Source: a virus
Virus record (IMG/VR): IMGVR_UViG_3300030099_001904
Span: 1 to 21,041 of that record
Length of the DNA: 21,041 bases
Reading direction: 5' to 3' (one strand)
This document shows positions 6,529-15,639 of this stretch, one piece after another. Under the pieces are notes generated by a model that was given only the letters and a program-made list of their open reading frames with translations, did not search any database and was not told the DNA's origin. A program made the translations under genes and the position numbers. Within the stretch, counting starts at the first letter, position 1, and each line of letters begins with the position of its first letter.

Positions 6529-6936
6529 TTACTCTAAAATCTTATCTTTTTTCAATTTATTAACAACAGATTTGTAATAACTTATCTTTTCTTGATAATC
6601 TACTCTAGTAAACTTTACTGTTTGATGTGCAAAAAATTGTAGTTCTTGTGCTGTTCCTTCGCCATATTTAGCATCTAATTGTAATGAAAACTTGTATTGT
6701 TCGCCTTGCTTGAACATATTGCAGCCTACGCATTGAGGTTGACAATTCTGTTCATCAAATCTTGTTGAGAGGTGTGTTCGGCTTTGAAAATGTCCGCATT
6801 GCATTCCTCTATTGTATGGCTTGACTATACCACAAGTGAAACATTGTACCATACCATATTCATTCGCATCACGCAAACGTATATAAAGACTGAACCATTT
6901 ATCAAGCTCTTTTTTAAGTTTGTTTATTGTCTTCAT
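6529..6936 (-). CDS. NinG/Rap-like recombination protein
   Basis: A 135-aa protein with the NinG (lambda Rap) pattern. An N-terminal helix leads to CFTCG near residues 32-36, then MQCGHFQSR (about 45-53), TRFDEQNCQPQC (about 58-69) and CNMFKQG. The Cys pairs bind zinc and the H/N residues form an HNH-like centre. In lambda, NinG/Rap is a structure-specific endonuclease that resolves recombination intermediates. Here it overlaps an HNH gene upstream by 23 nt and lies at the end of the replication cluster. Length is shorter than lambda NinG (about 200 aa) but common for Bacteroidetes phage copies. Confidence 0.85.
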   Translation of the reverse strand: MKTINKLKKELDKWFSLYIRLRDANEYGMVQCFTCGIVKPYNRGMQCGHFQSRTHLSTRFDEQNCQPQCVGCNMFKQGEQYKFSLQLDAKYGEGTAQELQFFAHQTVKFTRVDYQEKISYYKSVVNKLKKDKILE

Positions 6937-7132
6937 ATATTTGTATTAGATTTTCTATTTCATCTCTCGGAATATAACCACTTTGATGTATAACAACGTG
7001 AACTACAGATGGTACAGCAATTAAATTATCAACATTGTTATTATTGTGATTAAAATCTATATGGTGAACTTCCCATTTATTTGGTATTTTACCATATTTT
7101 TTTTCGTATAATTTTCTATAATTAATTTTCAT
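6914..7132 (-). CDS. HNH endonuclease domain protein
   Basis: A 72-aa minimal HNH protein. WEVHHIDFNHNNN supplies the HH pair and metal-binding Asp/Asn, VDNLIAVP supplies the middle Asn, and VVHVVIHQ supplies the final His. It has no visible DNA-recognition domain beyond the YRKLYEKKYGKIP leader. It may be a free-standing nicking endonuclease or act with the overlapping NinG-like protein. The start codon follows the 7138-7203 RNA element by a few bases, so that structure may affect its translation. Confidence 0.8.
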   Translation of the reverse strand: MKINYRKLYEKKYGKIPNKWEVHHIDFNHNNNNVDNLIAVPSVVHVVIHQSGYIPRDEIENLIQIYEDNKQT

Positions 7133-7137
7133 AATAT

Positions 7138-7203
7138 AAGGGGGAACGTAAAATCCACAAAGTATAACCGCTCATTGTTATAAGTTTCAATTACTACCCC
7201 CTT
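7138..7203 (-). ncRNA. Structured intergenic RNA element
   Basis: Outer stem: 7138-7144 (AAGGGGG) with 7197-7203 (CCCCCTT). Inner hairpin: 7163-7168 (TATAAC) with 7177-7182 (GTTATA), loop of 8 nt. The element fills the 74-nt gap between the HTH gene and the HNH gene, ending 5 nt before the HNH start codon on the minus strand. It could be a leader that masks the start, a processing site or an attenuator. No U-run follows it on the minus strand, so it is a poor terminator in that direction. Confidence 0.4.
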
Positions 7204-10381: not shown

Positions 10382-10653
10382 TATCTTGCATTTAAAATTA
10401 GACATTCTTTTTTATCATTATATATTTTTAACCATTCAGGTCTTGTGTCAATAGCAAAGCTATCTCTTAATTGCCAGCCGTGGTTTCTTAACATATATCT
10501 GAATTTATCTCTAATCTGTTCTTTAGTTCCTACAACTACAACACTACCTCCTGACATTCTATAATCAACACATTTAGTATCAGTATTATAATCATGAACA
10601 GATACTGCATCATAGCACCCTTTGAGTACCCAATATTCGCTTAAAAGTTCCAT
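10381..10653 (-). CDS. Hypothetical early protein
   Basis: A 90-aa protein I do not recognise. A strand-rich middle (SGGSVVVVGTKEQIRDKFRY) suggests a small alpha/beta fold. It overlaps the previous gene by 13 nt and the following one by 1 nt, so it is part of the early operon. Confidence 0.6.
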   Translation of the reverse strand: MELLSEYWVLKGCYDAVSVHDYNTDTKCVDYRMSGGSVVVVGTKEQIRDKFRYMLRNHGWQLRDSFAIDTRPEWLKIYNDKKECLILNAR

Positions 10654-10898
10654 TGTGTAATATCTTTAAAGTTGTAGTATTCAGTTTTAATCTCAATAAA
10701 TAAATCTCTTACCTGATTCCAAGTAAGACAATCTAACCACATAGAACGCTGCCTAGTAGTAGATAAGTCATTAAGTAAAGCAAATAAATCGCTTTTACAT
10801 TTATTAAGCCATACTGGGTTTTCTGCCATTACATCGCATATAGATATAATAGCTTCTTGTTTTCCTGTTGCTTCTAGCATTTTAAAATTTGATTTCAT
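10641..10898 (-). CDS. Hypothetical early protein, first gene after the structured RNA
   Basis: An 85-aa protein starting MKSNFKMLEATGKQEAIISI, helical, with NPVWLNKCKSDLFALLNDL and SMWLDCLTWNQVRDLFIEI. I chose ATG 10898. A longer reading to 10952 would need a TTG start and would put a hydrophobic segment inside the 3' arm of the RNA's closing stem. It is the first gene downstream of the promoter at 11259-11289, so it would be transcribed with the RNA if no termination occurs. No known family. Confidence 0.6.
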   Translation of the reverse strand: MKSNFKMLEATGKQEAIISICDVMAENPVWLNKCKSDLFALLNDLSTTRQRSMWLDCLTWNQVRDLFIEIKTEYYNFKDITQWNF

Positions 10899-10927
10899 TT
10901 CTGTTTTATTTAAGTTAATAATTATTA

Positions 10928-11249
10928 TAGTTAATTGAAATAGTAGTGTCAACTTGTAGTACTTCGTTTACTAGCACGTCCACATACTGAGTACGATTTA
11001 TTATCAACCTTTTGAGCCTTTACATCAAACCTTTATTTGATGTGATAATACCACTTGCCTCGCTTCGGTTTATATGCTATCACAGAGCCTAATCCCATCG
11101 TTTAAATATGTTTAATACCTCGCCAAGTATTAGAATAACATTGTTGCTATTTTATTTTATAAAGCGTATAACATATTTAACCCTCATCGCTAGGGTGCGC
11201 GTCTAGTTTCCTATATTCAAGATTCGTTTACTACTATTTCAATGAACTA
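10928..11249 (-). ncRNA. Large structured noncoding RNA or leader (about 320 nt)
   Basis: No ORF of note lies here. The ends form an inverted repeat: 10928-10947 pairs with 11230-11249 in 19 of 20 positions, including a 14-bp perfect run (10934-10947 with 11230-11243). Internal stems: 10957-10961/10969-10973; 10983-10987/10991-10995; 11022-11029/11036-11043; 11041-11047/11078-11084; 11102-11112/11170-11180 (11 bp); 11113-11120/11125-11132; 11180-11184/11192-11196. Two stems need G-U pairs that exist only in the minus-strand RNA, and a promoter on that strand begins 10 nt upstream of the 5' arm. An 11-nt direct repeat (TTCGTTTACTA) occurs at 10963 and 11223. It could be a stand-alone ncRNA or the 5' leader of the early operon. 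It matches no RNA family I know. Confidence 0.7.
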
Positions 11250-11258
11250 ATTATGGAA

Positions 11259-11289
11259 CAAATATACATACTTTTTTTATATTAACAAA
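11259..11289 (-). promoter_or_regulatory. Bacteroidetes-type promoter
   Basis: On the minus strand TTTG (11289-11286) is followed after 19 nt by TATATTTG (11266-11259), matching the Bacteroidetes primary-sigma pattern TTTG-N19 to 21-TAnnTTTG. Transcription would begin around 11250-11253, at the first base of the RNA's closing stem. It lies in the A/T-rich gap after the metallophosphoesterase stop (11351). It should drive the structured RNA and probably the early genes from 10898 downward. Confidence 0.72.
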
Positions 11290-11350
11290 CTTTTTAACGT
11301 TTTTTTTAACAAAAAAGTGTATCTATATCTAGTAAATTAGTGTGAAAATT

Positions 11351-12079
11351 TTATAAAGGCATCAGAATATTTATGGGAGTTTTGCCATTATTGCTGACAA
11401 TTCCTACCCCCACGGCTGGTCTTTTTCCGTATTTTGCATACGCCATCGCGTAACTTTTGTGGTTTATACCGCAACCAACTTGCATTCCAAATACTCTGAA
11501 ACGCTTACCAACATAATGTTCGCAGTATGCTTGTGTGTGTAAATGTCCTTGTACTGTATTCATCATATCAGCACGACATTTGGTTCTCGCCGTACCACCT
11601 TCTCCATGAATGTATTGTACGTTGTCTTTCTCGTATCTTTCAACGAAGTTCCAATCAGGCACTTCTAATACTTCTTTGTATGATTTAATCCATTTGCTAG
11701 GAATACTAGAAGTTTGTGCCTTACGCATTATAATGCGGTCATGGTTACCGATTATAACAGTAGCCATCGGAAATGCGTTACGCCAACGTGCTATACGCTT
11801 AATAGCTAATTCTAACTCGTCTAAGCCACCTAATCCGTCAGCTGAGGACTCATGGTAGCTTGAATAGTGATTGTCGATTATATCGCCTATAAAGACTACC
11901 TCCGTGCAATTATAGAAATAGTATTGGTCTATACAGAATTCTAAGTATGAATCTAAGCAAAATGGTTCATGAAGGTCACCGATGACTAGAACATTTCTAG
12001 TCTCGGATTCCCTCATCTTTTCTAGTGCCACAATCTCGTGTGGTTTTAGTCTATATCTATTACTTTCGTTCTTTACCAA
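11351..12079 (-). CDS. Calcineurin-like metallophosphoesterase
   Basis: A 242-aa protein with a complete set of metallophosphoesterase motifs: GDLH (D35, H37), GDIIDN (D66), GNHD (N112, H113), HGEGG (H158) and GHLH (H179, H181). These form a two-metal centre that hydrolyses phosphoesters. Phage relatives include nucleases (SbcD/Mre11-type fold), nucleotide phosphatases and cyclic-nucleotide phosphodiesterases; the sequence does not decide among them. There is no partner ATPase of SbcC type nearby. It overlaps the end of the holin-like gene by 20 nt and is the last gene before the promoter and RNA at 10928-11289. Possible roles are DNA degradation or repair, or neutralising a nucleotide-signal defence. 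Confidence 0.88.
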   Translation of the reverse strand: MVKNESNRYRLKPHEIVALEKMRESETRNVLVIGDLHEPFCLDSYLEFCIDQYYFYNCTEVVFIGDIIDNHYSSYHESSADGLGGLDELELAIKRIARWRNAFPMATVIIGNHDRIIMRKAQTSSIPSKWIKSYKEVLEVPDWNFVERYEKDNVQYIHGEGGTARTKCRADMMNTVQGHLHTQAYCEHYVGKRFRVFGMQVGCGINHKSYAMAYAKYGKRPAVGVGIVSNNGKTPINILMPL

Positions 12080-13578: not shown

Positions 13579-15639
13579 TTATCTTGGTTCTAAAAATCCT
13601 TGGTTAATCATTCTTTTTGGTGGTCTTGCTACAAGTGCATCATTACGCTCTGCTGTGAACCCTTCTGATAGTGCTTTAGTGTAACTAATAATTTGATTGT
13701 CGTTAATTTTACTTTTTGCACCTCTTAGAGATGTTTTGTAAATTCTTCTTAACCAAAAATGGTGACAGTTTCCGCCTCCTTTCCATAACCAGATTGAGTA
13801 AGTATCTGCTCCACGAGGTCCCCAGCCCGGATTAACTTTCCTATCTGTCATTTGTAAAATATCTTCTTTACGATAGATTTTATTAGCTGACATCATTTGG
13901 CGGCAAAAATCTCTAGTTTCTCCTTCTTGACTTAAAAAATTATCTTTAGTATATACATATCTAACTTTGTAAAAATCATTGCCTGACCTGTTCAAGCCAT
14001 CTTGTTCGCTTCTTGCATTTGGTCTTGCTGTTCCTGTGCTTACTGCAAAATCATATTTTTCGTTTACAGCTTTATTTAATTCAGTTTCGTAGTTAAAATC
14101 CTGATGCTCACCATCTACTACTTCTTCATCTACTAATTCCCAATCTTCAGGTATATCTTCTCCAAATTCTTTTATAAATTTAGAAAGTTCTGTAAGTTCT
14201 GTTTCACTACTTAACTTACAATTACACTGAGCATTTATTTGTTTTATTTGGTCGTGGTTTTCACAAGGCATATAATACTCCTTACCATCCATAGTATGTA
14301 TATGCGAACCTTTACATCCTATTCTTTCAGCTTCTGCTTCAGCTTCCTCTTTTGTTTCATACAACGGTAAATCTATCTTACCATCTTTACCGTCTGTAAC
14401 CATACTACCAACTTTTGCAAAATCTTCTCTTATCTCTAAATCTAATGGCTCTAAACCTAATTCATCTCTTATTTCATCTTGCGTCATTACACCTTTTAAA
14501 TCTTCACTTGTAAACTGTACTGTAATAGGTTTTAACTGAACGAAGTTAACAGGCATATCCATGTTGTTTACCTTAAATATCTTTCTTAGCTCTTTTACAA
14601 TATGGTCCTGATAAGGTTTTACGACAGTATTTAGATAAAAATTTGCTGCTGCATTAAGTTCGTCTACATTTGAACCTAATCCTGTTTCGTTCTTAATACC
14701 CATAAGCATAGGAGAAGTAACTCTGTGACCTGTCAATATATTCTGAACCAAAAGTTCCTGTAATGCTAGATATTGCTTATCTGCGTCAGACATACTGATT
14801 GGTACTATTTCCGGAGTTCTTGTTCTATCGTCTGAGAATGTCAATACAAATCGTCCTGCTGCCTTTTCTCCTGTGAATTTATCTGCTAGACTTTGTTCTA
14901 TTTGATAACGCTCTTCAGCTGTTGGTATACCGTTAGCAAAGCTGATGAAGTATGAACCTGCAAATCCATTAGAAATATTAGCTAAATGGTATTCCGCAAC
15001 CTTTTGGTCTACTAATGCCCAATTGTTAGCGGCTACGTAATCAGGAGTGTGATATACGTTCATATTAGGACTATAAAGACCTGAATAAAGAATTTGATTT
15101 GCAGAAGTCCTGTCATTAGTGTTGAATGCAGGTACTCTGTAAGGCTTGTTGATTCTTGTATTTCTCCAATCAGATGATACATAAAACGCTTCTACCCTAC
15201 CCATTTTATTTGGCTTCTCTGCCCTTATCTTCTCAACAGGTATATGATATATCTCTGCTATCTGAGTTCTGTCCTTAGACCACACTATATTAAGTGCAAA
15301 TGCACCTTGAAGTTTAAAATCAAATGCTATTTTCTTTATTACTTCATGTAGGCTTTCTTTCGAGTTAGCTCTATCCATGAAATGGCTTAATTTAACTCTA
15401 GCATCAATATTTCTATCTTCTTCATCTTCTATTACTAAGTTTTCTGCTGCTATCATTTCTGCTGTTGCATTAATAATAGCTGCCTGAGTTGAAGAATTGT
15501 AGTATAAATCAATTAAAAACTGCGGATATAAGTTGTTCCAATTTTCTGTTCCATAACTAATCCAATCTTTACCTCTTTCTTCTATTACGTGAGGTGCTGT
15601 TTCTGTTTCTAAGTTGATATTTAAAATGTTATCTTTCAT
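13579..15639 (-). CDS. Portal protein with C-terminal extension
   Basis: A 686-aa protein. Residues 1 to about 410 look like a phage portal: WISYGTENWNNLYPQFLIDL, GAFALNIVWSKDRTQIAEIY, YHIPVEKIRA, then a wing and clip region, and LLVQNILTGHRVTSPMLMGI. Portals are dodecameric rings at one capsid vertex through which DNA enters. The extra 275 residues hold two blocks that I associate with other head-assembly proteins of Bacteroidetes phages: a Cys/His block (GCKGSHIHTMDGKEYYMPC, 441-459) and a block at 556-636 with YVYTKDNFLS, TRDFCRQMMSANKIYRKEDI, GWGPRGADTYSIW and GGGNCHHFWLRR. The fusion may bring a capsid-maturation or morphogenesis function to the portal. It starts 10 nt after the preceding gene's stop. 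Confidence 0.85.
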   Translation of the reverse strand: MKDNILNINLETETAPHVIEERGKDWISYGTENWNNLYPQFLIDLYYNSSTQAAIINATAEMIAAENLVIEDEEDRNIDARVKLSHFMDRANSKESLHEVIKKIAFDFKLQGAFALNIVWSKDRTQIAEIYHIPVEKIRAEKPNKMGRVEAFYVSSDWRNTRINKPYRVPAFNTNDRTSANQILYSGLYSPNMNVYHTPDYVAANNWALVDQKVAEYHLANISNGFAGSYFISFANGIPTAEERYQIEQSLADKFTGEKAAGRFVLTFSDDRTRTPEIVPISMSDADKQYLALQELLVQNILTGHRVTSPMLMGIKNETGLGSNVDELNAAANFYLNTVVKPYQDHIVKELRKIFKVNNMDMPVNFVQLKPITVQFTSEDLKGVMTQDEIRDELGLEPLDLEIREDFAKVGSMVTDGKDGKIDLPLYETKEEAEAEAERIGCKGSHIHTMDGKEYYMPCENHDQIKQINAQCNCKLSSETELTELSKFIKEFGEDIPEDWELVDEEVVDGEHQDFNYETELNKAVNEKYDFAVSTGTARPNARSEQDGLNRSGNDFYKVRYVYTKDNFLSQEGETRDFCRQMMSANKIYRKEDILQMTDRKVNPGWGPRGADTYSIWLWKGGGNCHHFWLRRIYKTSLRGAKSKINDNQIISYTKALSEGFTAERNDALVARPPKRMINQGFLEPR

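Follow-up and report, generated by a model that had tools for sequence, protein, structure and literature searches.

The analysed stretch of DNA (hereafter the window, 21,041 nucleotides) comes from a small marine phage with a Bacteroidota-type host and carries, on its minus strand, a structured non-coding RNA of about 325 nt (10925..11252) that on sequence comparison is a member of a new RNA family not present in Rfam. As read from the DNA, the locus combines a promoter, a boxA, a leader-trailer helix and a conserved fold with a lack of coding content and independence from its neighbours. We consider it probable that this is a self-contained accessory phage ncRNA gene, laid out as a miniature pre-rRNA and using the antitermination route of host rRNA. 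The first-pass annotation had described a promoter-driven, structured and unlisted minus-strand phage ncRNA, which is supported here; it had missed the boxA element.

The RNA locus (minus strand, 11289→10925) lies in a 452-bp gap (10899-11350) that separates two minus-strand genes, a calcineurin-like metallophosphoesterase upstream of the slot (11351..12079; phrog_221, PF00149) and an 85-aa ORF, the first gene after the RNA (10641..10898; no PHROG or Pfam match). Only one ORF of 50 aa or more reaches into the gap, an extension of the 85-aa gene that begins at a TTG; this is in line with the earlier claim that the enclosed region is free of ORFs, and no terminator was seen between the RNA and the 85-aa ORF. 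Upstream of the RNA is a perfect Bacteroidota-type promoter, TTTG-N19-TATATTTG (11259..11289, minus strand), in which the -33 TTTG (11286-11289) is followed by a 19-nt spacer and the -7 element TATATTTG (11259-11266). The promoter alone is weak evidence, since the pattern has two matches in the window where 0.8 are expected by chance, the second being on the plus strand (14642-14672) within the minus-strand gene 13579-15639. The call is supported by its conservation in the homologue L098 (TTTG-N20-TATCTTTG), and most members of the RNA family are preceded by a similar promoter. Transcription would start at about 11250-11253, and GTTCATTGAAATA starts 11 bases past the promoter. As boxA forms part of the leader strand of the outer helix, the promoter abuts this helix, as had been noticed initially.

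The outer helix, P1, is formed by an inverted repeat of 20 positions with 19 Watson-Crick pairs and arms about 300 nt apart, consisting of a leader strand that includes boxA (11230..11249, minus strand) and a trailer strand that contains the anti-boxA (10928..10947, minus strand). This repeat, already recognised in the first-pass annotation, has more pairs than any found in 150 dinucleotide-shuffled versions of the gap, which reach 17 at most. When arms were swapped between 10 subfamilies, each with one representative, own arms reached a mean of -19.5 kcal/mol versus -10.2 for swapped arms, and none of 200,000 permutations was as good. The boxA itself (AGTTCATTGAAATA, 11235..11248, minus strand) is of the rRNA type, lies just 3' of the promoter, matches the box of Flavobacteriaceae 16S leaders and is conserved in the RNA family. 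Among the boxA-led loci listed, a convincing complementary trailer was found only in the family of the window RNA. Once P1 has formed, boxA is no longer accessible, so that the box would be usable only during transcription.

Within P1, three inner helices are upheld by comparison. In P3, the 5' strand ACTAGACG (11200..11207, minus strand) pairs with CGTGCTAGT (10970..10978, minus strand), which contains a bulged G; its six counted pairs are 100% paired in 23 sequences, four of the six show compensatory changes, and own arms are favoured over swapped ones (-4.2 versus -2.0 kcal/mol, permutation p 1e-5). P7, in which GCGA (11060..11063, minus strand) pairs with TCGT (10993-10996), is also 100% paired in the 23 sequences, with a compensatory change in one pair. 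P8, in which ATTATCA (11043..11049, minus strand) pairs with TGATAAT (11000-11006), changes from U-A to C-G between the window and L098, and its own arms reach -5.6 versus -2.5 kcal/mol, with 0 of 100,000 permutations as good. Taken together, the counted pairs of P3 and P7 are formed in 230 of 230 alignment cells, compared to 19-41% when the partner is slid, and 33 cells are compensatory versus 9.9 in shuffles that ignore relatedness. The arm-swap tests are alignment-free, with one representative per subfamily, and were used because RNAalifold yielded few informative pairs: with two sequences mostly invariant pairs and zero double changes, and with 23 sequences only 12 pairs, since the variable arms misalign. 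Since P1, P3 and P8 covary strongly, the locus specifies a genuine RNA on the strand that had been predicted. Energy alone does not choose the strand, as the z-scores of the fold energy against shuffles are alike (-2.7 for the minus and -2.65 for the plus strand); it is covariation, boxA and promoter that uphold the minus strand. The inner stems proposed at first thus fared unevenly: P3, P7 and P8 stand, whereas a CCCT/AGGG hairpin and others are broken in L098.

About two dozen other IMG/VR contigs carry homologues of the RNA; they add 22 distinct sequences to that of the window, and the family members are about 300-350 nt long. One of them, L098, was found by a pattern scan and has the RNA at the same locus; it is about 91% identical in the RNA, versus roughly 67-79% at the DNA level in the flanking genes. 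A scan for promoter plus boxA added the members L234, L266, L242, L235 and L284, and a scan with a core motif derived from these matched 26 contigs, of which 24 are clear family members. All 23 distinct aligned sequences, including the window, are recovered by the profile at E <= 1e-39, being the profile's own input. The family is thus defined by homologous sequence in other phages and by compensatory change in P1, P3, P7 and P8, so that both homologues and covariation, for which the first-pass annotation had suggested a search, were found.

The claim that the RNA belongs to no recognised family likewise held. At the gathering scores, no Rfam 15 family matches the RNA of the window, of L098 or of the family loci scanned, a permissive Rfam search of the window region gave no match either, and the family loci scanned have no Rfam match of any kind, tRNA included. 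Neither ARAGORN nor Rfam identifies the RNA as a tRNA or tmRNA, and the GOLLD covariance model (RF02032) has no match in the window or L098, although the same search detects GOLLD elsewhere. A DNA similarity search of isolated phages gave only promoter-like or chance matches, and none to the RNA. The core pattern has no match in 396 Flavobacteriales genomes, and neither has model R1 in 399 Flavobacteriaceae genomes, an absence that is soft given the lossy first filter. Readings as a retron, a group I intron or a CRISPR-RNA mimic were set aside, with no Rfam intron match and no reverse transcriptase recognised beside the RNA.

Two conserved cores are present in the family. In the window, core 1 is GCTCTGTGATAGCATATAAACCGAAGCGAGGCAAGTGG (11051..11088, minus strand), a derived form of GTGAAAAGATAGCANACCNAAGCGAGG, and core 2 is AAATCGTACTCAGTATGTGGACG (10977..10999, minus strand), a derived form of AAATCGTATGTGGCTATTGACCG; L098 also carries the derived version of both. 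The covariance model scores the window copy at 79.7 bits and L234 at 113.7 bits. With its core motifs diverged, the window copy could be losing function. In another member, L345 (836-1160), the RNA is a mosaic, with ends like those of L339 and a core stem like that of L358, which suggests that RNA modules probably recombine between phages, as L345 combines two subfamilies.

The genes around the RNA vary across the family. Upstream neighbours include metallophosphoesterase, terminase, tail and capsid genes (named from sequence, partly by profile matches), and downstream neighbours are many unrelated small ORFs, mostly within about 60 nt. In close relatives, the slot behind the early promoter is occupied by a 95-aa ORF and a terminator-like hairpin (L003 and L004), by other small ORFs or by other non-coding leaders, or is empty (L005). 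In L004 (~6860-7190), which is among the closest relatives, the 95-aa ORF is followed by a G+C-rich hairpin, GGGGGCGTAACAGCCCCC, in place of the RNA. Seen across these neighbourhoods, the conserved unit is promoter-boxA-RNA, rather than the RNA with a particular gene.

This context bears on a role in cis. The RNA lies at the start of an early operon, directly past its promoter, contains an antitermination element in the form of boxA and is separated from the ORF by no terminator, as would be expected of a nut- or put-like leader that makes polymerase processive along the early operon of ~10 kb on the minus strand; given that no terminator is visible, the RNA could also have a role as a 5' UTR. 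Nevertheless, close relatives keep the promoter and the operon without boxA or RNA, in other phages the RNA adjoins terminase, tail, capsid or other genes, and the covarying fold far exceeds what antitermination needs, so that we regard an antitermination leader as unlikely. The suggestion of the first-pass annotation that the RNA leads the early operon is weakened in the same way: the operon persists in close relatives that lack the RNA, and family members are followed by different genes.

It had also been suggested that the RNA is a decoy, which in its present form would titrate NusB-S10 (or S10) and thereby lower host rRNA synthesis during infection. The identity of the box with that of the host rRNA leader is consistent with this, as are the two copies in a different boxA-led RNA, that of L006. 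However, every subfamily tested pairs the box with the trailer, with strong covariation, and a box buried in P1 is hidden in the finished RNA, which makes a decoy quite improbable. Marginally less probable still is a cis-regulatory leader, such as a riboswitch or attenuator, for the small ORF just 3': most members do directly precede a small ORF, but these ORFs are diverse, the entire RNA lies inside the outer helix, and no competing terminator or start codon was identified. Finally, a MITE-like inverted-repeat element that inserted past the promoter and has no RNA function would explain the terminal inverted repeats, the AT-rich flanks and the presence or absence among close relatives (the slot of L005 being empty), but it is largely refuted by the covariation of the repeat arms between copies and of the internal helices, and by a conserved unit that includes promoter and boxA, and hardly merits belief.

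The preferred reading, an accessory ncRNA gene of pre-rRNA design, draws on the resemblance of its box to that of the host. In most of about 28 Flavobacteriaceae leaders with enough upstream sequence, AAGTTCATT(G/A)ACATATTG is found 110-170 nt upstream of 16S, and some leaders have an extra boxA copy past an upstream promoter. The flavobacterial box resembles the published boxA motifs of E. coli, GYTCTTTAANA (PMC5725501), and Legionella, GTTCTTTAAAA (PMC7862264); from its position and this similarity we infer that it is a functional, NusB-S10-binding Bacteroidota boxA. Across about 180 loci around the slot and its relatives, boxA is confined to non-coding-leader slots (the window RNA, L098, twice in L006, and L007), apart from three matches elsewhere.

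The combination of promoter and boxA is found more widely, in at least 120 viral contigs; the counts that follow are among the matches listed and are tallies, not rates. Within about 500 nt of 78 new promoter-boxA loci, tRNA or tmRNA genes are present in 25, and in 14 of the 78 GOLLD begins about 400-500 nt 3' of the header. Promoters with boxA are followed by non-coding DNA more often than the other promoters of these loci (52/66 versus 60/119, Fisher p 1.5e-4), with a modest enrichment for tRNA or tmRNA downstream (20/66 versus 17/119, p 0.012). GOLLD follows promoter and rRNA-type boxA in L226, L230, L231, L236, L237, L246, L251, L260, L264 and L270-L274, and a tmRNA lies near GOLLD on the opposite strand in L226, L236, L264, L272 and L273. 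A tmRNA directly follows the header in L253, L279 and L293 and, judging only by the resemblance of its start, in L232.

Like the window RNA, GOLLD (RF02032) is a large structured ncRNA encoded by phages with no assigned function, and in the phage loci found here (at least 14) it has the same promoter-boxA header, which agrees with the initial comparison to stand-alone phage ncRNAs such as GOLLD and ROOL. There is no sequence match between GOLLD and the window RNA family, and GOLLD is the larger, with more than 800 nt in many members and assembly into a 14-mer nanocage (PMC12286853); closure of boxA by a trailer was not detected in the GOLLD loci found here, among the matches listed. ROOL is similarly a structured ncRNA of phages and prophages, often near tRNA islands, but differs in size and gave no match in the Rfam scan. 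GOLLD and ROOL are therefore the same general kind of RNA as the new family, unrelated in sequence.

In its layout the RNA is also like the bacterial pre-16S leader, where a promoter and boxA are followed by a long-range helix that closes a folded RNA, and its box is nearly the same as that of the flavobacterial host leader. In E. coli pre-16S, a boxA-tethered complex and a leader-trailer helix of more than 17 bp have been described (PMC10250234). In host pre-16S the stalk lies mainly downstream of boxA, whereas in the phage RNA the closing helix has boxA within one of its two strands. The nut site of lambda resembles the window RNA in placing boxA on an early phage transcript, and put of HK022 is an RNA structure on an early phage transcript that acts on polymerase. 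In contrast to both, the window RNA is a much larger structured RNA and its unit is found in varied gene contexts.

By analogy, boxA would load NusB-S10 and other Nus factors onto RNA polymerase, and the untranslated transcript would thereby escape Rho. The tether may keep the leader strand close to where RNA leaves the polymerase until the trailer has been transcribed and can close P1, as has been proposed for pre-16S (PMC10250234). RNase III-type cleavage at P1, or closure of P1 itself, would then split the RNA from the following early mRNA, a separation proposed because no terminator was seen before the ORF; the RNA is probably excised at P1. For the mature RNA we can offer a guess: it may be a dispensable, trans-acting accessory whose most plausible role, given that it sits in an early slot of variable content, is host takeover or counter-defence. 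Equally tentative is the wider idea that promoter and boxA form a general rRNA-type cassette of Bacteroidota phages for large ncRNAs, in which the antitermination complex might serve as a folding chaperone and boxA might be handed from NusB-S10 to the trailer, closing and releasing the RNA before it acts in trans in takeover or counter-defence.

With this family, the short list of known large phage ncRNAs gains an entry that is supported by covariation. The combination of Bacteroidota promoter and rRNA-type boxA, which marks tRNA arrays, tmRNA, GOLLD and the window RNA family, provides a rule for finding and expressing such RNAs, bears on how GOLLD-type RNAs are made, and suggests that phages borrow the antitermination and folding machinery of host rRNA for RNAs of their own. 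No report of an rRNA-like header on a phage ncRNA was found in the literature searched, which lay largely outside subscription journals.

Several other non-coding elements were observed in related phages. A second boxA-led non-coding family comprises L006 (3701-4066, plus strand), L287 (1404-955, minus strand) and L296 (7582-7088, minus strand); L006, whose two boxA copies are separated by 128 nt and lie in the slot that the RNA occupies in the window, shares blocks of 53-81 nt at 77-85% identity with L287 and L296 and is unrelated to the window RNA. A 3' module of about 60 nt, AACCACCTTACCAAACGGAGC, is common to otherwise different leaders (L123 2746-3001, L287 ~1070-1011 on the minus strand, and L110 ~2451-2541). 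The same slot holds further non-coding leaders in L014 (6861-7130), L058 (6971-7146) and L007 (6867-7058), mutually unrelated by blastn, and the phage contig L228 contains a match to the Type III hammerhead ribozyme (RF00008; 379-435, minus strand).
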